DNA of 64,000 bases from Aeromicrobium erythreum (GTDB lineage Bacteria; Actinomycetota; Actinomycetes; Propionibacteriales; Nocardioidaceae), in contig NZ_CP011502.1 of the NCBI RefSeq assembly GCF_001509405.1, positions 3,472,001 through 3,536,000 of the forward strand, given 5' to 3'. Numbering within the stretch: position 1 is the first letter of the stretch; each line of letters begins with the position of its first letter. Made by a program: the position numbers and the translations under genes. This document shows, in pieces, positions 4,192 to 20,780 of this stretch. The notes beneath the pieces were generated by a model, which saw nothing but the letters and a program-made list of their open reading frames with translations, was not told the origin of the DNA and searched no databases.

Positions 4192-4203
4192 GCGCCGGGA
4201 CTC

Positions 4204-4959
4204 TCAGCCGCCGACCACACGCGGCGACGTCGAGCCGACCTGAGCGAGGACGCGGACGAGTCGTTGGCCGGTGGTCGCGTCGGTCGATCCACCGAGGACG
4301 GCGGCGTGCACGCCGCGGACCCCGGCGACGATCCCGACGGCGAGGTGGTCGGGGTCGTCGTCCGGGCCGAGCTGGCCGAGCCGCTGCGCCTCGTGCAGGA
4401 GCCGCGCGACCACGTCGACGAACAGCTGGTGCCAGCGGCCGGTGTCGACGACCTCGCGCGGGAGGCCGACGTCGCAGAACAGCACGTGGGCGCCCTGGAC
4501 GGCGTAGACGCATCGCGCCGCGACCACCAGGAGCTCCTCCAGCTGCTCCAGGGGCTCCGGGCTGAGGTGGCGAGGCGTCTCCTGCGCGATCCGCTCGATG
4601 ATCTCGGTCGCGGCCGCGTCGACGGCGGCACCGAAGACGTCCTGCTTGGTGTCGAAGCGCTGGTAGGCGGACCGCACGGAGACCCCGGCGCCGCCCGCCA
4701 GCATCTTCATGGTGACGGCCGCGTACTCGTGCTCGCGCAGGAGCTGCTGGGCGCTGCGCACCAGCCGGCTCGACACGTCCTCGTGCCCGTCGGAACGCTG
4801 CTCGGCGCGGCTCCCGGTGAGCTCTCCCGCCCACCGGTAGATCGTGGCGGGGTGGACGTCGAGCTCGGTCGCGACCTGCTCGGGGCCCACCCCCTCGTCG
4901 AAGGCGCGGGCGACCGCGGCGCGACGTCGCGCGACGTCGAAGCGGGACGGTCGGCTCAC
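4204..4959 (-). CDS. TetR-family regulator with two HTH segments
   Basis: This 251-aa protein starts at a GTG (4957-4959). Residues 10-45 (VARAFDEGVGPEQVATELDV then HPATIYRW) form a resolvase-type helix-turn-helix. A second, TetR-type DNA-binding domain follows at about 65-115 (MKMLAGGAGVSVRSAYQRFD). The remainder is a helical ligand-binding domain. The extra N-terminal HTH is not part of classical TetR proteins, which are about 200 aa. It is convergent with the small ORF at 3868 and followed upstream by the damaged SDR gene, a plausible target. The ligand is unknown. Confidence 0.85.
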   Translation of the reverse strand: MSRPSRFDVARRRAAVARAFDEGVGPEQVATELDVHPATIYRWAGELTGSRAEQRSDGHEDVSSRLVRSAQQLLREHEYAAVTMKMLAGGAGVSVRSAYQRFDTKQDVFGAAVDAAATEIIERIAQETPRHLSPEPLEQLEELLVVAARCVYAVQGAHVLFCDVGLPREVVDTGRWHQLFVDVVARLLHEAQRLGQLGPDDDPDHLAVGIVAGVRGVHAAVLGGSTDATTGQRLVRVLAQVGSTSPRVVGG

Positions 4960-5000
4960 GGGCTCAGCATAGGGACGACGACGACACTGACCGCCGGCCG

Positions 5001-5921
5001 TCAGACGGGGAACGCGAGACCCACCGCCTGCTCGGAGGCCGACCAGAGGCGCGCGGCGAGCTCCTCGTCGTGCGCGCGGGACGGCATGCGCACGAGGACG
5101 GGGCGGCCCCGGGTGTGGCCCGGCCACGAGGGTCCGACGCAGTCGCCCGACGAGAGCGTGGGGTCGAGGGCGGCTCGCAGGATCGGCTGGGCGCCGGCGT
5201 GCGCGCTCTGCAGACCGGGTCGGATCGCGCGGGTCAGGAGCCACCCGAGCACCGGGTGGCCCATCGCCATGCCGGTCTGCGTGATCTCGGTCGCGGCCAG
5301 GCCGGGATGCGCCGCCACGGCCGTCCGCGCGCTCGCGCCTGCCGAGAGTCGTCGGGCCAGCTCCCGCGTGAACAGCAGGTTCGCGAGCTTGGACTCCGCG
5401 TAGGCGCGCCACCGCCGGTCACGGCGTCGCGTCGACGACGCAGCCCACGCGTCGAGGTCGAGGCGTCGCGCGCTGGCGGCGGCGACCGAGCTCACCGTGA
5501 CGACGCGGCCGGCGGGCGCCAGGTGGGTCCACAGGTGCGCGGTCCAGGCGAAGTGGCCGAGGTGGTTCGTCCCCATCTGCAGCGGGAGGCCGTCGACGGT
5601 GCGGACGTCGGGCGCGAGCATGATGCCGGCGTTGTTGACGAGGACGTCGACCGACGGCGTCCGCTCCCGGAGCTCTCGCGCCGCGCGCTCCAGCGACCCC
5701 AGGTCGGCGAGGTCCGCCTCGAGCAGCTACATACGCGCCTGCGGGGCTTCTTCGGTCAGCCGCTCGACGAGCCCGGCGCCGCGGCGGAGGTCGCGCACGG
5801 TCATGTAGACCTCGGCCCCACGGTCCGCCAGCGAACGTGCCACGTGGAAGCCGAGGCCGCCGGTGGCACCGGTCAGCACGACGCGTGTGCCGGTCACGTC
5901 CGGCGGAGGTGTCCAGGTCAT
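5001..5921 (-). pseudogene. Short-chain dehydrogenase with in-frame amber codon
   Basis: The frame encodes a complete classical SDR of about 306 aa. It has the N-terminal cofactor motif TGATGGLGFHVARSLADRG, then VDVLVNNAGIM, the active-site tyrosine region (RRWRAYAESKLANLLF) and the C-terminal part. A TAG at 5727-5729 interrupts it after QARM, and the same frame continues without any shift as LLEADLADLGSL. Homologous SDRs read ...(V/M)ELLEADLADL, so a single GAG-to-TAG change explains it. Either the gene has been recently inactivated or it is a sequencing error. It is divergent from the NmrA-like gene. Confidence 0.85.
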
Positions 5922-5953
5922 ACGACGAGACGGTAGAGCAGATCCGTGAGTTT

Positions 5954-5986
5954 TGCGAATGACGTTTGCATCGTGCATAGTTCGCA
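5954..5986. promoter_or_regulatory. Candidate operator between divergent SDR and NmrA genes
   Basis: The dyad TGCGAA (5954-5959) and TTCGCA (5981-5986) is separated by 21 bases in an AT-richer stretch of the 112-bp divergent intergenic region. A HxlR- or TetR-type repressor commonly controls such NmrA/SDR pairs, and the double-HTH regulator at 4204-4959 is nearby. This is a pattern-based suggestion only. Confidence 0.35.
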
Positions 5987-6033
5987 TCAAGGAGCCCGCG
6001 GCCGAGGCCGCCAGAGGTGAAGGGTGGACGCCC

Positions 6034-7011
6034 ATGTCGGACCTGATCGTCGTGACGAGCGCTGCGGGCGGGGTCGGTCGACCGCTCGTCGAGCGCCTCT
6101 CCGCCGCGGGCGAGCACGTCCGCGCCTTCGTCAAGAACGATCAACAGGCGGGCGTCGCGCGGCGGGCAGGCGCCGCCGAGGTCGTCGTCGGCGACCTGCG
6201 CGACGCGTCCGCCCTGACTGACGCGCTGCGCGGCGCTGGTCGCGCGTACCACGCGGCCCCGACGCAGATCATCGACGAGCAGCCGCTGCTCGACGCCTTC
6301 ATCGACGCGGCGACGAGCGGCGACCTGCGGCACCTCGTGTTCCACTCGGTGGTCCACCCCGACCTGCACGTCCTCCCGCACCATCACCAGAAGGACGTCG
6401 CCGAGCAGCGGTTGAAGGAGTCCGGGATCCCGGTCACCGTGCTGCGGCCGTCGCACTACATGCAGAACTACCTCGAGCTGTGGGACTTCATCCGCGTCGG
6501 ATCCATGCCCTACCCGGTGAGCACGCAGAGCGTCATGGGCGTGGTCGACGTCGAGGACGTGGCCGAGGCGGCCGTGCGGGTGCTGCGCGACCCGTCAGGT
6601 CACGTGGGGCAGACGTACGACCTGTCGGCGCAAGAGCTGACGCGCGAGGAGATGGCGACCGCCTGGTCGGAGGTCGTTGGGCATCGCGTCACGGCAGTGC
6701 GGATCCCGCCGGCGTCGATCACGAACCCGCTGCGGTCGGTGCACGTCCTCCCGCAGCTGGTCGCGGCCCTCCCCTCGCCGCGGGCGACGTCGGTGGTGCG
6801 TCTGCTCAAGGCGCTCGACGGTGCGCGGAACGTCCGGGGGATCAACACCTGGAGCAGGGACGCCGTCGACACGTACCGGACGATGATGAGCCACTACGAC
6901 GAGCACGGCCTGCCGGCCGGCGACCTCTCGCACCTGCCGACCCTGCTCGACCGGGCGCCGACGTCGTACGAGCAGTTCGCGCGTCGCGAGGCCGCGCGCC
7001 GCGGCGTCTGA
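6034..7011 (+). CDS. NmrA-like NAD(P)-binding protein
   Basis: This 325-aa atypical SDR has the N-terminal motif VTSAAGGVGRPLVERL (G-x-x-G-x-x-G) followed by the strand-turn typical of the NmrA/HSCARG group. PVTVLRPSHYMQNYLE is characteristic of NmrA-type quinone reductases and redox sensors. The classical catalytic tyrosine motif is lacking, as in the family. The start is the ATG at 6034 (MSDLIVVTS), preceded by a purine-rich AGAGGTGAAGGG. An alpha/beta hydrolase pseudogene begins 16 bases downstream, so these were probably one operon. Confidence 0.88.
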   Translation: MSDLIVVTSAAGGVGRPLVERLSAAGEHVRAFVKNDQQAGVARRAGAAEVVVGDLRDASALTDALRGAGRAYHAAPTQIIDEQPLLDAFIDAATSGDLRHLVFHSVVHPDLHVLPHHHQKDVAEQRLKESGIPVTVLRPSHYMQNYLELWDFIRVGSMPYPVSTQSVMGVVDVEDVAEAAVRVLRDPSGHVGQTYDLSAQELTREEMATAWSEVVGHRVTAVRIPPASITNPLRSVHVLPQLVAALPSPRATSVVRLLKALDGARNVRGINTWSRDAVDTYRTMMSHYDEHGLPAGDLSHLPTLLDRAPTSYEQFARREAARRGV

Positions 7012-7027
7012 GGGAAGGGGCCGGGCG

Positions 7028-7848
7028 ATGGGTCGCGAGGTCGAGTGGGAGAGCAGCGAGCGCACGGTGCAGGTGGGCGGCGCGGACCTGCGGCTGGTCG
7101 ACGTCGGCGACCCGGACGCCGAGCGCGTCGTCGTGCTGCTGCACGGCATCGCGGCCAGCTGGCGCTGGTTCACGCCGGTCATCCCGGCCTTGTCCGAGCG
7201 GGCACGCGTGCTCGCCGTCGACCTTCCCGGCTTCGGGCGCTCGGCCATGCCGCCCGCCGGGCTGACGTTCGACGCCATGGCCGCCGCGGTCGACGAGCTG
7301 GCGGACCAGCTGGGGCTGGGCGCCGTCGACGTCGTGGGCCACTCGATGGGGTCGATCGTCGGCACGCGCCTCGCCGTCGACCACCCGCGGCGGGTCCGGC
7401 GCCTCGTGCTCACCGGGGGTCCGGTGCTCGCCCTGACGGACCTCCCCCGGCACCCGCTGCGCACCCTGACCAGCGGGCCGCGCGCGGTGACCACCCTCGT
7501 CAAGCAGCTCGCGACCATCGGGCTCCCGCTGCCGTCGGCGGCGGCCGATGTCGTCGCGGAGTCGGCGTTCGTGCGGCGCGTCCTCATGCGCGGCTACGTC
7601 GCCCACCCCGAGGACCCTGTCGCCCGACGTCGCCCGCGACGTGATGCGCGAGCTGGGCGCCCGCGGATCGCTGCCGACGCTGCTGTCGGCGTTCACGAGC
7701 GATCCCTCAGCCGGCCTCGAGCACGTGTCCGCACCGACGCTGATCATCCGCGGCGCCCAGGACCCCCTCTCCACCGCCCGTGACGTCGAGCGCTTCGCCC
7801 GCACCGTCCCCGACGTCCGCGTCGTCACCCTCGACGGAGTCGGGCTCC
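7028..7848 (+). pseudogene. Alpha/beta hydrolase, frameshifted and 3'-truncated
   Basis: The first 196 codons encode a normal alpha/beta hydrolase: oxyanion motif LLHGIAASW, nucleophile elbow GHSMGS, and cap sequence to GYVAHPED. An extra C within 7615-7617 shifts the frame. The product resumes in the next frame as LSPDVARDVMREL through APTLIIRGAQDPLS, including the acid residue region. Around 7845 the expected G-H-(L)-P catalytic-histidine motif is replaced by GVGLLPRK and unrelated sequence follows. The 3' end was evidently lost where the foreign island begins. It is not expected to be functional. Confidence 0.8.
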
Positions 7849-7858
7849 TGCCACGAAA

Positions 7859-7896
7859 GCTGACGGCAGATCATCGCTACCGAGCGTGCCGTCAGC
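7859..7896. repeat. Perfect 10-bp inverted repeat at island edge
   Basis: GCTGACGGCA (7859-7868) and TGCCGTCAGC (7887-7896) flank an 18-base spacer, about ten bases inside the point where hydrolase homology ends. Read on the minus strand it lies 145 bases past the histidine-phosphatase stop and is followed by a short T-run, so it could be that operon's terminator or a recombination site. Confidence 0.55.
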
Positions 7897-8040
7897 GGCG
7901 CGCCCTCGGCGAGCGAGGCGGCTTTCCCAAGGCCCCCACGATTCGTGAAGTTGGTCCTGCCGCCGCCTCGATGCTCCGGACGACTTTCCGTTCCCGAGGC
8001 ATCGACTGTCCATGGTCGAGCTCTGGGTCCCTGCGCAACC

Positions 8041-8622
8041 TTACTGCGGCTCGAGACCCGTCGGATTCTCGAGTCGCCCCAGCCTGAACGCGTCTAGTAG
8101 CGCCGGGAACCCTCGCCGCGGCGGTTCACAGTCTGGCAGGAAGTGCGCAAGCAGCATGCGTGCCACAGCAAAATGGCTGATGAGAATGATCCGCCGCTTC
8201 CCCTCGCAAGCAGTCAGCGTTGCTACCGCTTCGCTTAGGCGTCGAAGCACGGCATCACCGGACTCGCCGTTCGGAGGTGCTGCATTCAAGTTCCGTCCGG
8301 CTTCCCAGTCCCTGAGCAGGCTGGCGTGTTGATGTGTTCCTTCTGAACAGTCGTCGCGGCCCCAGTCCCCTGGGTCGACTTCCGCGAATCCAGAAACGAT
8401 CGTGCTCTCAGACTCCGGGAAAAGGATGTCGGCGGTCTGGATGGCCCGAGCAGCAGGGCTGACGAATACTTCGTGCGGCGGCAGTTGAGCCCGCCAGTAG
8501 GCGCGTTTCGCCGTTGCGGCAGATCGTCCGGCGGCTGAGAGCGGTGGTCCTGGCACTCCGACGGCCATTCGTCCGACTTCGTTGGCGTCCGTGGCGGCGT
8601 GCCGCACGAAGACGATGGTCAT
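8041..8622 (-). CDS. Histidine phosphatase superfamily protein (phosphoglycerate-mutase-like)
   Basis: This 193-aa protein has an N-terminal phospho-acceptor motif VRHAATDANE (RHG variant with Ala), a second conserved region VSPAARAIQTADI, and the C-terminal histidine in IILISHFAVARM. These are the branch-1 histidine phosphatase signatures. The start ATG (8620-8622) overlaps the glycosyltransferase stop as ATGA, so translation is coupled. It is the last gene of the SIR2-GT4-phosphatase operon. A role in dephosphorylating a sugar or nucleotide product of its partners is inferred; the substrate is unknown. Confidence 0.85.
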   Translation of the reverse strand: MTIVFVRHAATDANEVGRMAVGVPGPPLSAAGRSAATAKRAYWRAQLPPHEVFVSPAARAIQTADILFPESESTIVSGFAEVDPGDWGRDDCSEGTHQHASLLRDWEAGRNLNAAPPNGESGDAVLRRLSEAVATLTACEGKRRIILISHFAVARMLLAHFLPDCEPPRRGFPALLDAFRLGRLENPTGLEPQ

Positions 8623-9821
8623 AGAACTCGCTCCATGACAGCGAGCAGATCGTCGCCGAACGTCTCCACTGTCGGGAGGACTCGCGAGGATATGCCACCA
8701 TCGATCGGCATCGAGCGGTTCAGTGCCAGCCGCATCGCGCCGTACAGGTGATCGAGCGCTCGGCGATAAGCACGTGAACCTTCCTCGGCACGGAGACCTG
8801 ACTCGTTGAAATAGGAGGCTGCGGACCCGTAGATCTCTCGCATCGAGGTCTCGGAACCGACGAGGACCCGTGCCCCAGCCTCCAAGGCTTCCAACCCGGG
8901 GAACCCGAAGCCTTCGGAAACGGATGCCGACACGAAGAGATCGCACGACCGGTAGAGGTCGGCCAGCAACGCGTCTGATGCGTCTTCCAACAACGTCACC
9001 CAGTCAGCTCGTCTAGCGGCTTGTCTGACTGAGTCTGCATAAGCGGGGAAACTGGCTGTCGCACCACCCACCAGCACCAGGCGGAGATGGGGATGTTCGG
9101 ACCGAAGCCGATTCGCCGCATTGATCAGTGCAAGCTGGTTCTTGCGCGGCTCCATCTTGCTGACCCCGATGATCATCGGGTCGCCTCTCGGGACCGGTGC
9201 GTTCGATGGCGCGAGGGTAGACGAGACGAACGGATAGGCAACGTGCCACCGTCCCTTGGTCTGGGGAAGGTATCTGACGAGGTCAGTTGCGCTGAAGTGG
9301 GATACCGTCATCAACTCGTCGGCGCTCTCGGATCCCTTCTCGTACATACGCTGGATGAGGTTCGCAACAGCGGAACGCGAGTCTCTATCCAGCCAGGCCG
9401 ACTCGACGCCTAGTTCCCGTGCGAGGCCCAGGAGGACGTCCGCGCCATAGAGAGTCTCGAAGACGTCTCGGGATGGCGACGGGAAGTCACCCCAGAAGGG
9501 CTGAGCGTCGTGGAGGACTCTGACCAGTGGCACCACGTCGACCGGCGGCACGTAGTACTGCGGGGCGATGAACAGTCCGGCGCCGACGTCTTTCAGTGCT
9601 TGCGAAAGACCATTGCTCGCCCACGTGGAAAGAAGCGCCGCGTCCCAAGGGTACTGGGTCTGGCTCATGCGGGCCGAGGGGTTTACTAGTTCGACCAGCT
9701 CGAAGCGATGCCGGAGTGCTTCGGAGAATCGGAAGGCCTCGACCAGACACTGGGTGTATCGACCGATGCCGCTCGCGCCTGCTCGGCGCGCATCGACGGC
9801 CACCACAGTTCGCTTAGCCAC
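8619..9821 (-). CDS. GT4-family glycosyltransferase
   Basis: This is a 400-aa GT-B fold enzyme. The N-terminal acceptor domain includes VDARRAGASGIGRYTQ, typical of GT4 enzymes. The C-terminal donor domain has GVSKMEPRKNQLALI and the EX7E-like motif EGFGFPGLEALEAG. The family transfers sugars from nucleotide-sugars, usually to surface glycans. The start overlaps the SIR2 gene by 8 bases and the stop overlaps the phosphatase by 4. No other glycan-assembly genes surround it, which is odd for a polysaccharide locus and points to a system-specific job. Confidence 0.88.
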   Translation of the reverse strand: MAKRTVVAVDARRAGASGIGRYTQCLVEAFRFSEALRHRFELVELVNPSARMSQTQYPWDAALLSTWASNGLSQALKDVGAGLFIAPQYYVPPVDVVPLVRVLHDAQPFWGDFPSPSRDVFETLYGADVLLGLARELGVESAWLDRDSRSAVANLIQRMYEKGSESADELMTVSHFSATDLVRYLPQTKGRWHVAYPFVSSTLAPSNAPVPRGDPMIIGVSKMEPRKNQLALINAANRLRSEHPHLRLVLVGGATASFPAYADSVRQAARRADWVTLLEDASDALLADLYRSCDLFVSASVSEGFGFPGLEALEAGARVLVGSETSMREIYGSAASYFNESGLRAEEGSRAYRRALDHLYGAMRLALNRSMPIDGGISSRVLPTVETFGDDLLAVMERVL

Positions 9822-12204
9822 GGACGTTCCATCCTTTCGCCTGTTCCGATTTCGCCACGTAGTACCGAAGGAGGGGACTGAGCGACTCCCATACCGGTTC
9901 GCGAGTCACTTGAGCGTGGATGTCATCGAGGACATCTTGTACGAGCGGAGTCGACTCGGGCAGTCGGGAAAGGTGGACCGACACGTTGAGAAGATTCTCG
10001 ACCATCCATTGATGGGACCCACTGAGCCTTGCAAGTCGTTTAGTCAGATGGACGAAGCGGTCGGCTTCGACACCCGACATCATCTGTCGTTGCTCCAACG
10101 TGCGTGTCCCGTACAGCAGATCCCGGCACATAGCTGTGGCGAAATGGCTCGCACGGCTGGACTGCACACTGGAGCCGTCCGGGTCGGCCTCGAGGTCGTC
10201 GATCGCATCGTTGGCTGCAATCATTAGCTGCCGGTGCGCGGTGGACAGCGTCGCGTCGTCGCAATTGGGGTCTTTGAGAAGCGCTGAAAGATGTTCCAGC
10301 AGGACGAAGGACGCGAAGAAGGGTTCGACGACGTCCGAATGTCGGTCGCTGCCTCGGAGCTCGAGGTCGATTCCTTCGAGCAGAGTCACTACCGCTGCGG
10401 GTCCAGCCGAACGCGCTCGATCCAGTTCCGCTCGCAAAGATGCACGGCGGCTGAGCGGGGCCGTTGCGAGCGAACTCCAGGATTCTGCGGAGGGTCCGGT
10501 AAGTCTGCGAATCCATCGGCTGTCTACCCTTACACCGTCTGACAGACGTCTCACCTGCTCGGGTTCGTCCGAGAGCCGCACGGGTCGTCCGCTGACTTTG
10601 CTGAGTTCCCAGGAGAGCAAGAGATCTCCCCAGGTCTGTTGGTCGGCCGGACGAAGAAAGTCCTCGTAGCCCCCGACTCGGCAAAGGATCCACGCCAGGC
10701 GGGGGACCACGGGCCGGCATTGCGACCCAGCTCGGGAGTTCGGCTCTGCCCGCCAGGAACGTGCTTCACCGATCACGAATCCGTTGAGTGCTGTCAGTTC
10801 GTCCGGGTCGGTTTTCATCTGGAGATCCCGGACGAGTTGGAGAGTCAACCACTTGGAGAGCGAGTCCGAGTGCACTTGTGAGTTCTTTCGCACGAGCTCC
10901 ACTACGCGTCTCACATGGTCGTCGTCGAGTTCCGGTGCCGAGAGTCCGAGACATTCGAGGGTACGGTGCCAGTTCGGTCGCGTCGGAGTTACGTGGAGTG
11001 TGTGGCTCTTCAACCACTCGCGTATCGCGGTCTTGCGGGCGACAAGCATCTGCTGCGCGCCGGGATCCGTAGATTCGACTCGCTTGGCCCTCATGAAGAA
11101 GTAGAGGGCGGCTACTGGGTCACTGCCGCAGGAGGAAAGGTCAACCGTTGAAGCGAATGTTCGTGACGATCGCCATGTCTCGCGCGCCACGGCAGTCTTG
11201 ATACTCATCAGTTCGGCCGTGTCGTACTTATCGTCGTTTCCGTTGCGACTGGTGACGGCGTAGTCGACGTAACCGGCATCGTGACTGGTCCTGAAGTCGG
11301 TGAGTGCTTCGTTGAGCCTGCCCGCGAGGCGGACCAAGTCTTGCGACCTTCTCACCTTGAAGTTCCGGAGTCGCAGGTAGTTCCACCACGGCTCTTCAGC
11401 CGTCCCTCGCGTCTGCACGTACAAGGAACGCGGCGTATGGGATATCGCCCGCGAGACCTCCCGGATGACCGTGTCGAGGTTCTCGTCTTGCAGCCCGTAT
11501 CCAAGAAAGAGGACGTCGCGTTGAGCGAGGTTGACTCTGAGTTCGTCCAGGAGAAGCCCGCGTGTCCATCCAAAACTCGCGTAGTCGTCGGAAGTCACGA
11601 CAAGGGGAAGCTCGCGATCTAGGTGTACTTCGTCGATGCTGCCGTGAATCTTCACGATCTCGAGACGGTCGCCAGCCCGTTCAACTAGGTCGCTGGGCCT
11701 GCTCGTGACCTGATACGGGACGCCGATCGCCGCCAGCGTGGACTCGACGAGCGAGTCGTAGTTCGTCGTGTAGATGGATGACCATGGCAGGGACAGCAGC
11801 GGTGCCGCCGCCGTGACCGTCTCCAGGCTGAACGACTGGCCGGTCTCCTCGACAAGTAGCTCGACCAGGTCCTCTCGCGCCACCTCAGGATCGATGTTTC
11901 CGTACCGCACGAGTTCAGAGATGAAGAATTGGGACGCGAGTCGCAATTGATAGGTCCGCCTGCCGTCCTCGGTCAGGCTCGTGGTCGCGGCGATGACGCG
12001 CGCAGGGACGTGGGAGCTCCCGTCGAGTCGTTCGATCAGCGACTTCACAATCGACTCGCCGAGTTCTGAGGCTGTCTTCACGTTCTCGCCGCCGACGCTG
12101 CTGAATGCGCTCGTGAATCCCGCACCCAGGAACAGAACGCAGGTCCCGTCCGCGATTGACGCGATCAGCTCCCCGTCGAGGAGATCGTCTTGTGGCGTTG
12201 TCAT
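9814..12204 (-). CDS. SIR2-like domain protein (SIR2_2), putative NADase effector
   Basis: This 796-aa protein begins with a SIR2-like domain (about residues 1-290). It has the nucleotide-binding motif FLGAGFTSAF (GAG at 27-29), the catalytic-type motif TTNYDS (146-151) and the histidine in KIHGSID (His187), then FLGYGLQDENL (around 233). This order matches prokaryotic SIR2 proteins that degrade NAD+ in anti-phage systems such as Thoeris, DSR and Avs-linked effectors. The remaining 500 residues are helical, without a recognisable domain, and may sense a trigger. The start ATG at 12204 was chosen over an upstream basic extension. It heads a three-gene coupled operon. Confidence 0.85.
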   Translation of the reverse strand: MTTPQDDLLDGELIASIADGTCVLFLGAGFTSAFSSVGGENVKTASELGESIVKSLIERLDGSSHVPARVIAATTSLTEDGRRTYQLRLASQFFISELVRYGNIDPEVAREDLVELLVEETGQSFSLETVTAAAPLLSLPWSSIYTTNYDSLVESTLAAIGVPYQVTSRPSDLVERAGDRLEIVKIHGSIDEVHLDRELPLVVTSDDYASFGWTRGLLLDELRVNLAQRDVLFLGYGLQDENLDTVIREVSRAISHTPRSLYVQTRGTAEEPWWNYLRLRNFKVRRSQDLVRLAGRLNEALTDFRTSHDAGYVDYAVTSRNGNDDKYDTAELMSIKTAVARETWRSSRTFASTVDLSSCGSDPVAALYFFMRAKRVESTDPGAQQMLVARKTAIREWLKSHTLHVTPTRPNWHRTLECLGLSAPELDDDHVRRVVELVRKNSQVHSDSLSKWLTLQLVRDLQMKTDPDELTALNGFVIGEARSWRAEPNSRAGSQCRPVVPRLAWILCRVGGYEDFLRPADQQTWGDLLLSWELSKVSGRPVRLSDEPEQVRRLSDGVRVDSRWIRRLTGPSAESWSSLATAPLSRRASLRAELDRARSAGPAAVVTLLEGIDLELRGSDRHSDVVEPFFASFVLLEHLSALLKDPNCDDATLSTAHRQLMIAANDAIDDLEADPDGSSVQSSRASHFATAMCRDLLYGTRTLEQRQMMSGVEADRFVHLTKRLARLSGSHQWMVENLLNVSVHLSRLPESTPLVQDVLDDIHAQVTREPVWESLSPLLRYYVAKSEQAKGWNVRG

Positions 12205-12647
12205 GTGCTGATCCTGGCTCTGCCGGAAGGCCGGGAAACGAAGAATGACAGAAATAGTCGTTCGAACAACGATGAACGCCCTTGTGACGCATGCACTGAG
12301 ACCAGGTCGCCGTCTAAGCCGCGCGTTCACTACCCCACGTAGCCACATCGAGCATCGAGAAAGCACTGGAGACACTAGCCCCCGATCGGCCGTTCGAGCG
12401 TGGAGGCGGATCCGCGTCGGTCTCTGTCCGGTTCGAAGCGATGCTGGGCAGACTTCGATAGCTTAAGGCTTTTTCACCGGCACCGACTGAAACGGCATGC
12501 CGTCGGTCTCGGTCGTGTTGGTCGGTATGGCCACCCCACCTCGGCCTGGCACACCGGGACCGACCACAATGTGACGATGCGCCATCTAAGATATGGATGA
12601 GCCAACGTGCGCCTCATGCAGCCACCGCGCTGCTCGCGACAGACCAA
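12205..12647. other. Intergenic region upstream of SIR2 operon
   Basis: These 443 bp lie between the SIR2 start and the IS3-type element. They are comparatively AT-rich and contain the palindrome GTTCGAAC (12260-12267) about 56 bases upstream of the SIR2 start, which may mark its promoter or operator. No supported gene was found on either strand. Confidence 0.5.
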
Positions 12648-12672
12648 GGGACTGCTGCACCGATAGGTGACA
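12648..12672 (+). repeat. Left terminal inverted repeat of IS3-type element
   Basis: This 25-bp end (GGGACTGCTGCACCGAT..) matches the inverse of 13945-13969 at 24 of 25 positions, and is preceded by the target-duplication triplet CAA. Confidence 0.85.
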
Positions 12673-12716
12673 TCTGATCTGTGGTGCCGTGAGGTGCCGC
12701 TGGAAGGATGTGCACC

Positions 12717-13049
12717 ATGCCCAAGCCCTATCCCCGTGATTTCCGCGAGGACGTCGTGCGGGTCGCCAGGAGCCGCGAGCCAGGAGTCCTGTTGAAGGAC
12801 ATCGCCGCTGACTTCGGGATCAGCGAGTCGTGCCTGGCCAACTGGATGAAGACTGCGGACGTCGAGGACGGCCTCAAGCCCGGAACCACCGCGGCAGAGA
12901 ACGCCGAACTGCGCGAGGCGAAGAAGCGGATCCGCCTGCTCGAGCAGTGGGGGCACCTCCCGCTCGCGGGGGCGAACGAGGTCCTGCGCCGCGCGGCGGC
13001 CTACCTGTCTCAGGCGAATCTGCCGGGAAAAGGCTCTTCCCACTCGTGA
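12717..13049 (+). CDS. IS3-type transposase OrfA (HTH) with in-frame insertion
   Basis: This 110-aa product has an N-terminal HTH (PKPYPRDFREDVVRVA to FGISESCLANWMKTADVEDG) and the leucine-zipper KKRIRLLEQ...NEVLRRAAAYLSQ used for OrfA/OrfAB multimerization. The sequence WGHLPLAGA replaces the expected single Glu between LLEQ and NEVLRRA. It is encoded by a 27-bp palindromic insert that keeps the frame but breaks the zipper heptads. The start ATG at 12717 has GGAAGGA eight bases upstream. Probably impaired. Confidence 0.75.
   Translation: MPKPYPRDFREDVVRVARSREPGVLLKDIAADFGISESCLANWMKTADVEDGLKPGTTAAENAELREAKKRIRLLEQWGHLPLAGANEVLRRAAAYLSQANLPGKGSSHS
12948..12974. repeat. Palindromic insertion in orfA
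   Basis: The 27-bp insert begins TGGGGGCACCTCCC and ends with a G-run, forming a hairpin of the G5...C5 type. Its inverse complement shares GGGAGGTGCCCCCA with the insert in orfB (13429-13461). It resembles short mobile palindromic repeats scattered in actinobacterial genomes. Confidence 0.6.
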
Positions 13050-13937
13050 GGGAGCTCGCGGCTGACGGGATCGGAGTCTCGCTCAGCTGCCGCGTGCTCG
13101 GGCTGTGTCGCCAGCAGTACTACCGCTGGCTCGCTGCCCCGGTCACGACCTCAGAGTGGGACAACGCCCACCTGGCCAACGCCGTCTTCGACGCTCACGA
13201 CCAGGACCCCCAGTTCGGGTATCGGTTCATGGTCGATGAGGTCCGCGAGGCCGGGTTCGGACCGGCCGAGCGGACCGTTTGGCGGATCTGCTCAGACAAC
13301 CAGTGGTGGTCCTCCTTCGGAAAGAAGCGCGGCAGGAACGGCAAGAAGCCCGGCCCGCCGGCCCACGACGACCTGCTCAACCGGGTCTTCCAGGCCGGGA
13401 GGGCGAACCAGATCTGGCTGACCGACATTCCCCCGAGCACTCCGTGCAGGGAGGTGCCCCCACCGAACACCCCACCCATGAGGGAAAGGTCTACCTCTGC
13501 GCGATCAAGGACACTGGTCCAACCGGATCGTGGGCTACTCCATCAGCGACCGCATGACCTCCCACCTCGCCGTCCGAGCCTTGGAGAACGCTGTCGCCCG
13601 CCGCGGCGACGTAGCCGGCTGCATCGTGCACTCAGACCGCGGCAGCCAATTCCGAAGCCGCCGCTTCATCGCCCCACTCGCCCGCCACGACATGGTCGGA
13701 TCGATGGGACGAGTCGGCGCAGCAGGAGACAACGCCGCCATGGAGTCCTTCTTCGCCTTACTGCAGAAGAACGTCCTCAACACCCGTCACTGGACCACCC
13801 GCGAAGAGCTGCGGATCGCGATCGTGACCTGGATCGAACGGACCTACCACCGCCGACGCAGACAAGCCGTCCTCGGCCGATTGACCCCCATCGAGTGGGA
13901 GACCATCATGAACCAGACCGTCGCCCTGGCGGCCTAA
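13046..13937 (+). pseudogene. IS3-type transposase OrfB (rve integrase core), disrupted
   Basis: The first part (RELAADGIGVSLSCRVLGLC through ANQIWLTDI) is in one frame and contains the HTH_21 region and the first catalytic Asp (LTDI). A roughly 33-bp GC-rich insert and a short deletion near 13510 shift the frame. The rest, from VGYSISDRM onward, lies in another frame and carries the second Asp (VHSDRGSQF) and the Glu (DNAAMESFF) of the DDE triad, ending with TYHRRRRQAVLG. No intact OrfB or fused OrfAB can be made. Confidence 0.85.
13429..13461. repeat. Palindromic insertion in orfB
   Basis: This roughly 33-bp stretch splits the expected codons for LTDI-TEHPTHEGKVY. It ends in GGGAGGTGCCCCC and starts with a C-run, so it folds into a hairpin and matches the inverse of the orfA insert over 14 bases. 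Confidence 0.6.
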
Positions 13938-13944
13938 CCCCACC

Positions 13945-13969
13945 TGTCACCCATCGGTGCAGCAGTCCC
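13945..13969 (-). repeat. Right terminal inverted repeat of IS3-type element
   Basis: This is the inverse of the left end with one A/G difference, followed by the CAA target duplication. Confidence 0.85.
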
Positions 13970-15102
13970 CAAGGCCATAGCTGCGTCTGGAGAGGGACCG
14001 GTCCACTCTCGTCCGTTGGAGATCTAGCTGTAGATCCCGCACGCGCGCTCGCGCGGAGCAGTTGGCCTACTCCAACCGACCTGTGTGGAAGAGGTGATCC
14101 ATAAACAACTCGTGGAGTCCCGCTGCCAAGATCTCGCCCTCTGCGTCAGTGAGCCCATCAACTCGCGCCCGCTGGCCGATTCCACACTTTTTCCGGTCAG
14201 ACCGAGCGAGACATTGAAGTCAGGTCGCAGAGCTTCTCTCTTCCTCGCCCTATGGATCTGCATCCGAGACTGGCCTTCGTTTCCCCTGACCTCCCGGTCG
14301 AGGCGGGGCATCAAGTCTCTGGAGACTCGCTCTCCTGGGTGCGCAGGTACCACGAATACGGCGGGCCGAGGCTAGAACTTGATCAGTGCCTGAAAAGCCA
14401 GGTCCCGCAGACACGCCCACTCCGGGGAGTCAGGCACGGAGTCGAGGTGCCAGAAGTCCTCATGAACCGAACCGCTCCACTCTCCGAGCACAGCATCCAG
14501 TGCTTCGGCAGCATGGCGAGCGGTCAGTCGCGACCCAGCCGGCTCGTTCGAACTGCGGCAGCAAGAGCACGCCGCTCTCGAGCGCGAGCTCATCGGCGTA
14601 TGGAGGAGCACCCAGGCCCAGCGACTCGAGCCAAGCGATCTAGCGCTTGCCGGCATTGCCAGCAGAGCGACACTCCTCACGAACATCGCGAGAACACGCG
14701 GATGGAGGTTTGTCACTGGTGGGAATCTTACTGTGCCACTGGCTCCGCTAGAGACCTTCCAGTACGGCACGCCGCCGAGTCGGCTACGGCGACGCGTTCG
14801 CCTTCAGCGCAGCCTTCAAGCGACTGCACGCCGTCAGTCCCGCACACTTCCGGCGTGCGAGCGCACCCGGACGAGCTGCCGCACGTCTAATCAGTGCACC
14901 GATCCGGCGGCGCGGGCCCTCGCACCGTGGGCGATCCCTCTAGGCACGATGAGAACCGCGTCGACAGGCACGCTCGTCTCGACGAAGCCCCGGTCCGGAG
15001 GATCCCCCATCGCGACAGGTGCACACCCCAGACGGCCACCCCGAGCACGACGCCCTGGATCGAGCGGGAGCGCCCCTCGACCATCCACTCTGCTGCGTGC
15101 GA
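13970..15102. other. Decayed sequence between IS element and protease cassette
   Basis: This stretch of about 1.1 kb has no convincing intact gene. Reading frames change repeatedly and codon usage is not coherent on either strand. The only protein-like traces are on the minus strand at 14372-14770, listed separately. It is probably remnants of older island genes. Confidence 0.5.
14372..14770 (-). pseudogene. Remnant of an unknown gene, multiple frameshifts
   Basis: One minus-strand frame ends with EALDAVLGEWSGSVHEDFWH and SPEWACLRDLAFQALIKF, which reads like a genuine protein C-terminus. Immediately upstream, protein-like sequence (IAWLESLGLGAPPYADELAL and VLLLPQFERAGWVATDR) is in another frame. 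Two frameshifts would be needed to join them. The family is not recognised. Confidence 0.25.
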
Positions 15103-16476
15103 TCAGCTTGGCCAGGGGAGGGTCATATCCGGATGGGGGCACCGTCCGATCAACGTAGAGATGAACCCGAGGATCTGCGGGCTACCACTGACGACGCCAG
15201 AGGCACCCGGCACCATGCGCAGGTGACGCGTTGACGGTTCGCTGTAAGCGTTGAGACTGAATGGGCCGTAGCGCACTTCCCGCCCTGCTTCGATCTTGTC
15301 GAGTATCCAGTCATACGCTTCGCGCGAGGAGAGGATGAGCTCGACATCTTTGACCAGGAGAGCCGTGGTCGGCAGGATGGGAAGAACTCCGGTGGCGGGT
15401 TCATTGCCCACGACTGATCCGCCGGTTGAGATGACGGTGCCGCGTCCGATGCTCTGCGCTGACCACTTCCATAATCGGCTCGAGAAGACAGAGGAGTCCA
15501 TCCACGGTCGGACGATCGAGATCCGTTTCATCGAGCACGACAGGAAGAACGGACTCTCCGCGCCGCTCGCCGCTGGGCCTGCTTCGTCCATCCCGCTCTC
15601 GACGTGTCGAGCGGCAAGGATGGAGGACTGCCGGTTCCACGCAGGCATTCGCCCTGGAGATACTTCGTCTCCTGAGCGGACGCTGCAGCAACATCTGCCG
15701 TCGCACCCTCGCATCCCTGTCCCACCTGAGCGGGGTTGGTTGGCGAAGTCGTCCGGGTCGAAGCGGAACGGAGTCCACTGTTCATCGCGAAACCAGTCCT
15801 TGTAGCGCGGCACGCTGTCCACGACCTGGAACGCACTCCCATTCGCGAGCCGTTCGGTGCCTGTGTCGAATCGGTCTGCCAGCTGCTGCCAGTACACGTA
15901 GGGTTCACGGGCCTGCAGCTGCTTCACGGTTGCCAGAGCGGTCTCGACCTCTTCTCTGTGACCATGCTCGTCCCAGGCCTGACGAGCCTCGCGGTAGCGA
16001 GCGATCACCTCTGGCGGGACGAGAGGTCCGCCGTTCTGTTCAGTCGCGCGAGCCTCGAAGAGCAGATCCTGCGCCGCGTAGAAGACCGCCTCGTACTCGA
16101 CGTAGTCACGCAGCTGCGGGCTCGGCTCACCGTCCACCTCGAGGTAACCCTCAGCTTTCGCCAACTCAGCCTTCTGCTCCGGCGAGAGTCCGATCTCGGG
16201 AGTCTCCTTGCCGTTGAGGATCAGCTGATAGATGTCGGAGACCAGGCCGGCCTTCGGTGTCACGACGTAGTTGCACTCCAGTGCCGCGTTGAGCAAATTG
16301 CTGACCATGTACTTGGTCTCGGGGTCGTCAGGGTCGAGGTGCGGCGTGACGACGATTCCCGGCCACTGGATGCTGAGGAGCGCATCGGGACTCTGCCCGA
16401 CCACCCCGGAGACCGCCAACGCCTGGGCAATCTTGCTGTACAGCTGGACGAACTCGGCTGAATCGGTTCGGCTCAT
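15103..16476 (-). CDS. Unknown protein A, paralog of 16532-17836, with an internal out-of-frame segment
   Basis: This 457-aa protein has no recognised family. It aligns end to end with its neighbour: the N-terminus (LYSKIA vs LYSKLA, both 11 residues after Met), TVKQLQAREP vs IMKQLQGRDG, ISIVRPWMDSSVFSSRLWKW vs VTISRNWMNPLVFNSRAWKF, and the C-terminal HPDMTLPW vs NPDPNLPW. That alignment and a GGAGAGGG site set the start at 16476. Between about 15545 and 15735 the main frame gives Cys/Arg-rich sequence, whereas the next frame gives SAQETKYLQGE, like the paralog's SYQEDKEYIKVEE. Two compensating frameshifts are likely, so activity is doubtful. Confidence 0.55.
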   Translation of the reverse strand: MSRTDSAEFVQLYSKIAQALAVSGVVGQSPDALLSIQWPGIVVTPHLDPDDPETKYMVSNLLNAALECNYVVTPKAGLVSDIYQLILNGKETPEIGLSPEQKAELAKAEGYLEVDGEPSPQLRDYVEYEAVFYAAQDLLFEARATEQNGGPLVPPEVIARYREARQAWDEHGHREEVETALATVKQLQAREPYVYWQQLADRFDTGTERLANGSAFQVVDSVPRYKDWFRDEQWTPFRFDPDDFANQPRSGGTGMRGCDGRCCCSVRSGDEVSPGRMPAWNRQSSILAARHVESGMDEAGPAASGAESPFFLSCSMKRISIVRPWMDSSVFSSRLWKWSAQSIGRGTVISTGGSVVGNEPATGVLPILPTTALLVKDVELILSSREAYDWILDKIEAGREVRYGPFSLNAYSEPSTRHLRMVPGASGVVSGSPQILGFISTLIGRCPHPDMTLPWPS

Positions 16477-16531
16477 GCCGGCGTCGCCCTCTCCCATGGC
16501 TGAGAAGCGCTCTGCCACGCCCCAGCACCGA

Positions 16532-17836
16532 TCACGCGGGAGCCCACGGGAGGTTCGGGTCGGGGTTCGGCACCTGAGGAAGAACCTGGCTGATCGCGGC
16601 GATGATCTGCGTGTTGTTGATCGAGATTTTGTTCTCAGCGAACGTCCCCTTGATGCTTTCGCGGCGGTCCTTGTACTGCACCGAGCCAGCGATCGAGAAC
16701 GGTCCGATGCCGAGACTGGCCTCAGCCTCGATCTCGCGCTTCATGCGTTCCTCGACGGTGTTCTGGAACTTGCCGAGGATCTCGACGTTGCGCGCCAGGA
16801 TGACGGTCGTCGGGATGGCGACGAAGGCGCCCGTCGGGACGATCTTGTCCTTCAGGCTCCCGCCAGACGACAGCTCCGCAGCGGGTGCCGTGGGCTCGAA
16901 CTTCCACGCCCGACTGTTGAAGACCAATGGGTTCATCCAGTTGCGACTGATGGTGACCCTCATCAGCTCGCACTTGAAGGAGAGACTGGTCTCCTCGACC
17001 TTGATGTACTCCTTGTCCTCCTGATAGCTGCCGGAGCCAGAGATAGTGACGATGCCGAACTTGCCATCGAGGTTGCCGGCGACACCGATGTTGGTCGACG
17101 TCGACTGGTTGTTGAGGTCTTTCTCGACGAACTCGAACTTCGTCCATCCTTCGTCCTTGAACCAGCTTGCGTACCGGGGCGCGAGAGTGGCGGGGGGAAA
17201 GCGCAGACCACTCGGCAGCTCGCGCTCGTTCTCGGCGAACCGCTGGTCGAGCTTGTCCCAGAACGCCGACCCGTCTCGGCCCTGGAGCTGCTTCATGATG
17301 GCGAGATTGGTCTGCTGCTTGATCTTGCCAGCCGCGACCCACTTGTCCATGGCCGACTTGACCTTGGCCTTGAGGGCCGCCGACGGTGCCGGCCCGGTCT
17401 TGTTCTCGTAGTTGGCCTGCGCGGCGTCGTACTCAGACACCACGGCCCAGTACGCGGTCTCGGCGGCGTCGCACTTCTCTTGACGCTCCTCGTAGTCTTT
17501 CTCAGCCGCTGCGAGCTTCGCCTTCTCCTTCTCGCTCAGATCGGCGATGGGGTAGGTCTTGAGGTCGAGAATGCTCTTGTACGCATCGGAGACGCGCAGA
17601 GCACCGGGCGTGTAGGTGAAGTTGAACATGGGCGCCGTGTCGAACAGCTGCGAGATCTCCTGGTCGTCGTCCGCGTTGTTGACCGGGTCGAGGTTGACGG
17701 GCAGGTACTGACCCGGGTTGTAGATGGAGAGGAGAGACTCTCCGATGGTTCCCGGATTCTCCTTCGAACCGGCACCGACCGCGATCGCAAGCTTGGAGTA
17801 CAGCTTCTCGTAGAGGGTGGCATTGTAGTCAGTCAT
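16532..17836 (-). CDS. Unknown protein B, protease-linked, possible beta-hairpin effector
   Basis: This 434-aa protein lacks a signal peptide and obvious membrane helices. It has an N-terminal globular part, a charged coiled-coil-like stretch at about 95-170 (KEKAKLAAAEKDYEERQEK), a conserved SWFKDEGWTKFEF, then alternating polar/apolar beta-type sequence at about 245-290 (GKFGIVTISGSGSYQEDKEY). A long C-terminal domain ends in NPDPNLPW. Alternating Ser/Gly-rich strands are seen in some pore-forming toxins, but no homology is claimed. It lies 138 bp downstream of a serine protease and 55 bp before its paralog, in one orientation, suggesting joint function. Confidence 0.7.
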   Translation of the reverse strand: MTDYNATLYEKLYSKLAIAVGAGSKENPGTIGESLLSIYNPGQYLPVNLDPVNNADDDQEISQLFDTAPMFNFTYTPGALRVSDAYKSILDLKTYPIADLSEKEKAKLAAAEKDYEERQEKCDAAETAYWAVVSEYDAAQANYENKTGPAPSAALKAKVKSAMDKWVAAGKIKQQTNLAIMKQLQGRDGSAFWDKLDQRFAENERELPSGLRFPPATLAPRYASWFKDEGWTKFEFVEKDLNNQSTSTNIGVAGNLDGKFGIVTISGSGSYQEDKEYIKVEETSLSFKCELMRVTISRNWMNPLVFNSRAWKFEPTAPAAELSSGGSLKDKIVPTGAFVAIPTTVILARNVEILGKFQNTVEERMKREIEAEASLGIGPFSIAGSVQYKDRRESIKGTFAENKISINNTQIIAAISQVLPQVPNPDPNLPWAPA

Positions 17837-17974
17837 GGTTCCATCGCCTTTATCGTTGATCGATCATGCGAACTGATTCCCTCGTTCGCGGCAGGGTCAA
17901 GCTGTAGAAAACTGAGATCACGAACGCGAGCACGGATCCTCGCGCGACTCGTCGTTGGGAAGCACGGCAGGTTC

Positions 17975-18739
17975 CTAGAGCCACGTCTCGATGGTCCTGA
18001 TGACGTCGCTGGTCAATCTGACGGCAAAGTTGGACTGCAGCTCGCTGCTGCCGGCCACGTGGATGCCTACGATCCGAGGAACGTCGCCTTCCTCGTCCTC
18101 TTCGAAGGTGCACCTCACAGCCGCGCCACTCTGACCGTTGAACGTGCTGATGCGGTACCACAGGAACTCAGCAGCGGGCGGCGGCGTCAAGGGGCCAGCC
18201 GCGTTCCACATGGTGCCGGCCGTCTTGTCGCCCGGGTACCCAGCGATATCAGCGGTTCGATCCACGAGAGTCTCGTCGCTGGCGTCGTACAGGAAGGGGA
18301 AGGCACCTTCCGCGGGGTCGAGTCCTGTCTGCAGGGACACCACGCCAAAGTCGTAGAGGTACCGGGAGTAATCACGAACCACTCCGCCGGTCGCGGCGGG
18401 GTCCGCGGGCGACAGCGTCCTGTACTCCTCACTCACGTGAGCATCCCTGAAGCCGACCGGAGGGTACGGCCGGTCCGTGCCGTTCTGCGCGAGCGAGAAA
18501 ATGACCGAGCTCGCCCTCCCCCCGCGCCTGTCTTGATAAAGGTTGTGACCGCAGGTGAGCACCCGGTCTCGGTCGATGAGCGTGCCGGTTCCGGTGCCGC
18601 GGCTCCCGTCGGGAAAGGTGATGGCGAGCTGGCCGACCCACGAGAACGGCGTGACGGTGGTCGGATCCACCCGGACACGTCCGTCTGGGGGAAAGACACT
18701 GTTGAGGATAGGCGCACCTGTCCGAGACTGATCTTCCAT
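17975..18739 (-). CDS. Trypsin/V8-like serine protease
   Basis: This 254-aa chymotrypsin-fold peptidase has a complete triad: His65 in LTCGHNLYQD, Asp130 in YLYDFGVVSL, and Ser204 in FNGQSGAAV (GxSG). The pattern is that of glutamyl endopeptidase/V8-like proteases. There is no signal peptide: the N-terminus is EDQSRTGAPILNSVFPPDG, so it is probably cytosolic, unlike most family members. The ATG at 18739 has AGGGGTG six bases upstream; a start at 18766 is also possible. It precedes two paralogous unknown proteins, which may be its substrates. Confidence 0.85.
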   Translation of the reverse strand: MEDQSRTGAPILNSVFPPDGRVRVDPTTVTPFSWVGQLAITFPDGSRGTGTGTLIDRDRVLTCGHNLYQDRRGGRASSVIFSLAQNGTDRPYPPVGFRDAHVSEEYRTLSPADPAATGGVVRDYSRYLYDFGVVSLQTGLDPAEGAFPFLYDASDETLVDRTADIAGYPGDKTAGTMWNAAGPLTPPPAAEFLWYRISTFNGQSGAAVRCTFEEDEEGDVPRIVGIHVAGSSELQSNFAVRLTSDVIRTIETWL

Positions 18740-19244
18740 GCGAAACACCCCTGACTGATCGATCATGAAAACTGATAGATAAAACCGTGCAACCCATCCC
18801 AGCGAAGACTCGAAATCCCCAAGATCCCTACGCTGCCGGAGGGGCCATCGCTGAACTCGTGGCGAGGAAGTTCAGAATCGGGATGCACTGCCACCTCGTC
18901 AATGGACGGGGCGATAAATGGGACGTACAACCCGCCGAACCCGATCGAGACGCGAAAAAGGGGCTCTCGATAGTTCCTGCGAACTACGGCGTCACGCTTC
19001 GGCCGGCTAGACGTTGCAGGACAGGAACGTGATGACGCGGGGCAGCGTGACTCGTTCAGAGCCCAGGAGCTCGACGACCTCCGTCAGCGTCGGAGTCCAC
19101 GCCTGAACCCGCCTCCTCCGCGTTGCCGACGCCCCAGGTCGTGAAGGTTGATCACCTCATGACTCGGCGAGATGAGGGCATTCGCCTTCGCTTTCGTGGC
19201 AAGCGGGTTAGCGTCCGACATCCCTCTCACGATCTGGACCGCTC
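18740..19244. other. Gap between protease and thiaminase-like gene
   Basis: This region of about 500 bp must contain the protease promoter. A plus-strand ORF at 18787-19032 (81 codons) has no recognisable features or good ribosome site. A minus-strand frame ending at 19007 (TEVVELLGSERVTLPRVITF) looks protein-like but has no start codon. At 19172 an alternative frame encodes a signal-peptide-like stretch discussed in the findings. Confidence 0.4.
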
Positions 19245-20483
19245 ATGCCCAAGGACACCCCGCTTCTTCGACCACTCAGACTTCCTCGGCCGTCGACGAC
19301 GACCGAACCCGTCCTCAACGTCGCCATCTACCCCTACCTGCCCCGCCCCCTCCAGTTCGAGGACGCGATCCGAGCCCAGTGGCAAGCGGTACGACCCGAC
19401 GGCCCAGAGCTCAACTTCGTCGACTACGACTGCTACTCCGCCGATCCACCGAGCACGCTCGACGTGTTCACCTTCGACGCGATCTTCATCAACCACTTCC
19501 AGACAGCCGGCTACCTCCTGCCGATCAGCGAGCCCCTCGACGGCGACTTCATGGACTTCGCCCAGCGAGCGGTCACCGTCGAAGGGCAGGTCGTCGCCTA
19601 CCCCCAGCTCGGCTGCCTCAGCTCCCTGATCGTCCGCAGCCTCGACGTCGACCTGCTCGACGCTGTCGGCAGCGACGGCATCCTCGACGTCCTCGGCGTC
19701 GCCACGGACCCCACCACACCCCAACCGCCGACCGACTCGGGCCTGCTCCTGGACTACACGGGCCGCACCACCGACGCCTGCGAGTACGCCCAAGCACTCC
19801 AGCAGCAGGACCACGGCTACGACGTGCCGTTCCAGCCGCCACCGACGGTCGATGAGAACGCCATCGCCTCCCTGCTGAACTACACCAAGGCCGCAGGCCG
19901 CGCGCAGGCTGGATACGAGGATCCCGCCTCCCAACGGCTGCAGTGGTTCACGACCGGATCAGGGCGCGCCCTCGCCGGCGTCACCGAGAGCCTCGCGACG
20001 TTCCCCGTCGACCAGATCCAGAACTACACCGTCCGAGCCAAACCACTCGCCCCCGCGAGCGCCCAGGGCGAGAACTGCTTCTTCGTCGACGGAGTCGGCA
20101 TCAACCCTCGAACACCCGACACCGCATCCGCACAGGCGCTGGCGCAGGTAATGACGTCCCTGCAGGTGCTCGGGCAGGGCTGCAGAGCCCGCACCGCAGA
20201 CGAGAACCCCCAGTACCTCATCCCGGCACGCCAGTCCGTTCTCGACGACCTCGCCAACCAGTACCCCCTCTACAGCACCATCCGCACCATCGTCATGGGC
20301 TCCCCCCGCCACGCCTTCACCGTCGACGCGAGCGTGCGCGACTGGCTCACCGCACAAGGCGCGGTCATCCGCGACCAGCTCCTCGAGAACACCGTGCCCG
20401 AGAACGACACCATCGTCGTCAACGACCACCCCATCCACCCCTCGCTCGCGCACCTGCCAGTGAATCTGGCACGCAAGAGGTGA
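19245..20483 (+). CDS. Thiaminase I-like protein (thiamine pyridinylase)
   Basis: The 412-aa sequence follows bacterial thiaminase I throughout: VAIYPYLPRPLQFEDAI, YDCYSADPPSTLDVFTFDAI, the catalytic-cysteine region YPQLGCLSS (Cys124), WFTTGSGRALAGVTES with the catalytic Glu (Glu248), FFVDGVGINPRT, and NPQYLIPARQSV. The Cys-Glu spacing (124) is close to the 128 of the Paenibacillus enzyme. The fold is that of periplasmic binding proteins, and the family cleaves thiamine by base exchange. Known members are secreted, but this frame has no signal peptide and a weak ribosome site. A 5' frameshift or a cytosolic role must be considered. Confidence 0.75.
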   Translation: MPKDTPLLRPLRLPRPSTTTEPVLNVAIYPYLPRPLQFEDAIRAQWQAVRPDGPELNFVDYDCYSADPPSTLDVFTFDAIFINHFQTAGYLLPISEPLDGDFMDFAQRAVTVEGQVVAYPQLGCLSSLIVRSLDVDLLDAVGSDGILDVLGVATDPTTPQPPTDSGLLLDYTGRTTDACEYAQALQQQDHGYDVPFQPPPTVDENAIASLLNYTKAAGRAQAGYEDPASQRLQWFTTGSGRALAGVTESLATFPVDQIQNYTVRAKPLAPASAQGENCFFVDGVGINPRTPDTASAQALAQVMTSLQVLGQGCRARTADENPQYLIPARQSVLDDLANQYPLYSTIRTIVMGSPRHAFTVDASVRDWLTAQGAVIRDQLLENTVPENDTIVVNDHPIHPSLAHLPVNLARKR

Positions 20484-20694
20484 ACACCGCGGCAGACTCC
20501 GAGACCCGGGTCCTGCACGTTGCGTCGACGACGACGGATCGGTGCGCCAGGGCGTCCTCGAACGCGCCTGCGCAACAATCGGAGACGGGCACGACGGGGG
20601 CCTGTCCCTGCTCGTCCAGCCCGACATCGATGCACGAAAAAAGCCGCCGGCGTTGCCGCCCACGGCTCTCTCGTTCTTCCTCGTGCTTCTCGTC

Positions 20695-20780
20695 TGGTGC
20701 GCGAGGGGGGATTTGAACCCCCACGCCCTTGCGGACACTGGCACCTGAAGCCAGCGCGTCTGCCGTTCCGCCACTCGCGC
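20695..20780 (-). tRNA. tRNA-Leu (anticodon CAG)
   Basis: Read on the minus strand, a 7-bp acceptor stem (GCGCGAG/CTCGCGC) is followed by discriminator A and an encoded CCA. The anticodon arm is CTGGC-TTCAGGT-GCCAG with anticodon CAG, there is a long class II variable arm, and the T-arm has GGTTCAAATC. The location beside fhaA matches other actinobacteria. It marks the right edge of the putative island. Confidence 0.95.

Follow-up and report, generated by a model that had tools for sequence, protein, structure and literature searches.

We assign the gene at positions 19245..20483 (+ strand) of the window, the whole 64,000-nucleotide stretch of the Aeromicrobium erythreum chromosome that was analysed, to the thiaminase I (thiamine pyridinylase) family. 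With a probability of about one half, we consider that it encodes an intact, leaderless enzyme that would act in the cytosol, either as a route to TMP through pyrimidine and thiazole salvage or in the clearance of thiamine analogues. Thiaminase I is enigmatic, being usually exported and destroying a vitamin that its own producer needs; a leaderless enzyme whose host lacks both ThiC and thiamine pyrophosphokinase (TPK) and carries a pyrimidine/thiazole salvage operon offers a single organism in which the salvage hypothesis can be tested directly.

Identification of a thiaminase I gene

The 412-residue product (ATG to TGA) scored 248.3 bits against TIGR04541 (thiaminase_BcmE, EC 2.5.1.2), passing the equivalog cut-off of 175, and 61 bits against Pfam PF22141 (Thiaminase-1_dom; cut-off 27). 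It also matched the Paenibacillus thiaminase I structure PDB 2thi (E=1e-57), with 130 of 351 aligned residues (37%) identical in the HMMER alignment. In this alignment, Cys124 (codon 19614..19616, +) and Glu248 (codon 19986..19988, +) fall on the catalytic Cys113 and Glu241 of 2thi, and Tyr29, Tyr31, Tyr64, Asp78 and Asp282 are kept (Y16, Y18, Y50, D64 and D272 of 2thi, respectively). Both the homology to thiaminase I and the conservation of Cys124 and Glu248, catalytic Cys included, had been claimed in a preliminary description of this DNA and are borne out by these matches. The host protein has S229, V246 and F280 where 2thi has Y222, Y239 and Y270; these three tyrosines, together with Y16, Y50, D64 and D272, are presumably the pocket residues around thiamine. 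A C-terminal extension (residues 376-412, ...VND...NLARKR; 20370..20480, +) lies past the end of the 2thi match and is recognisably common to this protein and a homologue from Rhodococcus fascians. A structure predicted from a two-sequence alignment had a mean pLDDT of 31. Altogether, membership of the thiaminase I family is firmly indicated by sequence comparison.

Other identities were tried and rejected. A solute-binding protein had been named beforehand as the match that would speak against a thiaminase; when this comparison was run, with NMT1/ABC-type binding proteins, the significant matches of the frame were to thiaminase models only, and the PF09084 matches of the host genome fall at other loci. 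A phage or viral gene was dismissed after a search of phage records and viral contigs returned no match, and a pseudogene was dismissed given an intact reading frame and purifying selection in both comparisons available, with the closest homologue and with a second copy in the same genome.

This second copy lies on the same chromosome (L026:7698-8455, -) and lacks the 5' part of the gene, running from about codon 163 to the stop; positions 19726..20481 (+) of the window are thus present twice in the genome (L026 8455-7700, 98% identical). Over the 250 common codons, 13 differ, all of them synonymously (13 synonymous, 0 nonsynonymous), which at a transition weight of 4 has a probability of about 1e-7 for 13 random changes; the copies therefore diverged while functional, which suggests either that the gene was acquired twice or that it was duplicated long ago and one copy was later truncated. 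Their similarity breaks off sharply at the stop codon, which is TGA in the window and TAG in L026. Genes for a PIN-domain protein and an RHS-repeat protein and a resolvase-HTH fragment lie around the truncated copy. A small resolvase-type HTH protein is encoded both there (L026:7021-7434, -) and at the locus of the closest homologue (L025:448-780, -), the two being 62% identical and lying ~0.3 kb and ~7 kb, respectively, from the thiaminase genes; it was not found in the window and is possibly a mobile-element remnant.

A conserved leaderless N-terminus

As first described, the frame opens after a TAG with ATG at 19245 and no leader: the TAG lies at 19209-19211, no other start codon is found between it and the ATG, and ahead of the conserved domain ATG 19245 is the sole start. 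The first 22 residues (MPKDTPLLRPLRLPRPSTTTEP; 19245..19310, +) have no hydrophobic core, and neither a signal peptide nor a lipoprotein signal was detected in the protein, in its closest homologue or in the R. fascians homologue (P0002). The closest homologue found (L025/L027) belongs to a Propionibacteriales MAG of the same genus (G039, JAPLCA010000005.1) and is 70% identical and collinear without gaps over residues 1-412. It begins at the same Met, MPKDTPLLRPRRLAQPSTSDAPVLNVAIYPYLP (MPKDTPLLRP-RL), with 15 of the first 18 residues identical. Between the two genes, the first 22 codons gave dS 0.98 and dN 0.21 by NG86 (pS 0.55, pN 0.18), much as the whole gene did (dS ~0.98, dN ~0.23; pS 0.55, pN 0.20), and these codons are therefore taken to be protein-coding in the annotated frame.

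The preliminary description had also pointed to an overlapping +1 frame (19172..19855, +) that reads MRAFAFAFVASGLAS...AHA at its start, and had suggested that a 5' frameshift lay behind the missing signal peptide. The frame does exist, ends its leader-like stretch in AHA and passes a simple leader rule, but 35 of the 422 window ORFs of at least 40 codons (~8%) pass that rule, so its likeness to a leader is not clearly above chance. Nor is it conserved: in the homologue the corresponding frame reads LGNEPSIQRGCRH, then a stop at the matching place and GSHPRRSDPHH, and has no hydrophobic core. With no family match either, we judged the frame spurious. The proposed frameshift thus fails against a leaderless N-terminus that is conserved at 70% identity while the leader frame is not, and the comparison firmly supports a genuine leaderless state. 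Within this family, the lack of a signal peptide can hence be a trait that a lineage conserves and need not mark a broken gene.

Genomic context and distribution

The gene had been said to lie in an island, which comparison with relatives confirms. Relative G018 lacks a variable region of ~16 kb (4192..20631) and has the same flanking genes ~0.8 kb from the tRNA-Leu; the region is bordered by tRNA-Leu(CAG) (20695..20780, -). Conserved synteny with the window runs rightwards from ~20632 in G028 and G039 and from 20697 in G018; to the left of ~20632, beside the tRNA, the genes of G028 and G039 are different ones. This places the thiaminase gene at the border of a variable region, next to tRNA-Leu(CAG), and the site is a hotspot. 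At the same site, G028 and G039 (L055:9140-18662, L056:1852-4638) share a 928-residue protein with a secreted-type start, which in G028 is accompanied by a 2244-residue neighbour.

The neighbours within the island are a trypsin-like peptidase, two proteins of unknown function, an IS3-type transposase pair, a SIR2 protein and a GT4-conflict glycosyltransferase. The two unknown proteins are adjacent (15103-17836, -), of 471 and 434 residues, with similar opening motifs (LYSKIAQALA and LYSKLAIAVG) and no Pfam or padloc family; the peptidase (17975-18766) comes after them, and the three may form an unknown conflict system. Further to the left (8041-12375, -) lie the 853-residue SIR2-domain protein (best padloc match ThsA), the glycosyltransferase and a histidine phosphatase, all candidate defence genes, while the IS3-type element (12648-13969) comprises two transposase ORFs flanked by 25-bp inverted repeats that are 96% complementary.

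Thiaminase I is very rare among sampled actinobacteria. In each survey that contained both genomes (99 relatives, 395 genomes of the class and, by protein, 397 of the order), it was found above the cut-off in the host's own genome and in G039, and in a draw of 397 genomes from the phylum the host was the sole match. These samples overlap, and the figure of ~1,000 different actinobacterial genomes, two of which carry the gene, is an estimate.

Host thiamine metabolism and the proposed role

ThiC was not found in the host genome, nor was a TPK catalytic domain; the ThiG profile gave short partial matches only, which are probably other TIM barrels. Of the 49 genomes searched in the genus, 45 lack ThiC and none has a TPK domain above the cut-off, and the genus appears to rely on salvage of thiamine precursors. 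The host carries two TPP riboswitches, one ahead of a thiM-thiE-thiD-tenA operon and the other ahead of a YkoE-like/ABC/CbiQ-type transporter. None was found at the thiaminase gene, which is unlinked to thiamine genes.

The thiaminase does not have the export signal found in most relatives, so it probably works inside the cell, which is also the simplest reading. If it acts as the solved enzymes do, Glu248 would activate Cys124, which would attack the pyrimidine of thiamine or of an analogue and expel the thiazole, after which a second nucleophile would release the enzyme. The freed thiazole could then pass to ThiM, and the freed pyrimidine, directly or after TenA, to ThiD and ThiE; TPP would be built from imported pyrimidine and thiazole, and intracellular cutting of thiamine or its analogues could feed this pathway. 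In a host without ThiC and TPK, cleavage of imported, damaged or antivitamin thiamine inside the cell would thus be a route to TMP and no waste. Thiaminase I yields adducts instead of HMP, and these would need processing by TenA or another enzyme. The gene is dispensable for auxotrophy, because most of the genus lacks ThiC, yet only these two members are seen to carry it. A salvage function has been proposed for the thiaminase I of Paenibacillus (PMC5627462), and a report of one for the exported enzyme of Burkholderia thailandensis is cited in PMC10147936. Salvage or analogue clearance is the best-supported putative role.

Alternative explanations

A wider proposal, possible but held tentatively, is that Actinomycetota harbour a cytosolic, horizontally mobile branch of thiaminase I to which the gene belongs; it would cut vitamin B1 inside the cell, either as an unusual salvage step in hosts without ThiC and TPK or as island cargo for defence, depleting thiamine in the infected cell.

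Thiaminase I can suppress thiamine auxotrophs, as shown for CcThi1 against Phytophthora, and CcThi1 is active without its leader (PMC10499793). The host enzyme could likewise be a public-goods weapon, freed from the cytosol by lysis or a non-classical route to destroy the thiamine of competitors, and its position in a variable island with conflict-like genes (SIR2, GT4-conflict, trypsin-like) would suit such a use. We nevertheless find this unlikely: the protein has no signal peptide, secretion genes were not seen beside its gene, no export route for a secreted weapon was found, and a host lacking ThiC would itself be harmed by loss of extracellular thiamine unless the pieces were salvaged. 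Given the absence of ThiC and TPK and the presence of the thiM-thiE-thiD-tenA operon, intracellular salvage fits this host better than a secreted, vitamin-depleting weapon.

Three replaced tyrosines raise a different issue. Since Y222, Y239 and Y270 of 2thi have become Ser, Val and Phe, the preferred substrate may differ, and the same three residues occupy these places in the 70% identical homologue; with the C-terminal tail past the 2thi match, this could indicate a thiaminase fold now directed at a different substrate (a pyrimidine or thiamine analogue) or used for binding only. Yet the protein retains the catalytic pair, D282, D78, Y29, Y31 and Y64, it exceeds the TIGR04541 equivalog cut-off by a wide margin, and a Cys/Glu pair would be useless to a binding protein, which makes such a shift rather improbable.

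Cytosolic thiamine depletion might also slow an infected cell in the manner of abortive infection, the gene then being cargo of a phage-defence island. The rarity of the gene, its place in the variable region and the nearby SIR2-domain protein (with Thoeris/Dsr-like matches), GT4-conflict glycosyltransferase and trypsin-like peptidase accord with this. We hold it to be very unlikely, however, because the homologues in G039 and R. fascians adjoin unrelated genes, no padloc model covers the thiaminase, neither a regulator nor a partner accompanies it, and TPP already bound to enzymes would be hit slowly.

Finally, a secreted enzyme whose true leader, the 19172 frame, was recently lost to a 5' frameshift or is hidden by a sequencing error can be set aside as barely credible: the leader-like opening ending in AHA and the export of most studied thiaminase I proteins would favour it, but the residue-by-residue conservation of the annotated N-terminus, the unrelated and stop-interrupted leader frame of the homologue, a synonymous/nonsynonymous ratio in the first 22 codons equal to that of the whole gene and the ~8% chance rate of leader-like ORFs all stand against it.

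Comparison with known systems

The cytosolic thiaminase that we favour resembles several characterised or sequenced proteins in part. With the Paenibacillus thiaminolyticus enzyme (PDB 2thi/3thi/4thi) it shares 37% identity over 351 residues, the catalytic Cys/Glu pair, D64, D272, Y16, Y18 and Y50. That enzyme is extracellular and is encoded in an operon that also includes thiamine and bacimethrin genes (PMC5627462), whereas the host protein is leaderless, is encoded by an orphan gene, bears a C-terminal extension and has replaced Y222, Y239 and Y270. Neither thiamine genes nor bacimethrin genes turned up in the vicinity of the host gene, the G039 homologue or the R. fascians homologue, and bcmA-D-type genes (deoxyribosyltransferase, thymidylate synthase, methyltransferase, kinase) were absent from the examined window neighbours and from beside L025 and L029. 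The G039 homologue has the same leaderless start but different neighbours (a cytochrome P450 and an Ig-like secreted protein).

A bcmE thiamine pyridinylase on plasmid pFiD188 of R. fascians D188 (WP_032364993.1) is 33% identical over nearly the whole length; like the host protein, it matches TIGR04541 (230 bits), is leaderless, stands as an orphan among hypothetical genes and has a related C-terminal tail, but it lies on a plasmid, has retained Tyr at positions 222 and 270 of 2thi and differs in its N-terminal residues. A literature search returned no paper naming thiaminase together with Rhodococcus fascians.

TenA (thiaminase II), an intracellular thiamine-salvage enzyme of which the host has a separate copy, is non-homologous and uses water. 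CcThi1 and the myxobacterial thiaminase I proteins have the catalytic Cys/Glu pair in common with the host protein; these are mostly lipoproteins exported in vesicles and are ~18-19% identical to the Paenibacillus and Clostridium enzymes (PMC10499793). The earlier statement that known enzymes are secreted thus holds for the most part, with recorded exceptions: of 138 myxobacterial homologues, 3 have no signal peptide of any kind, so that the leaderless protein described here has precedents within the family (PMC10499793).
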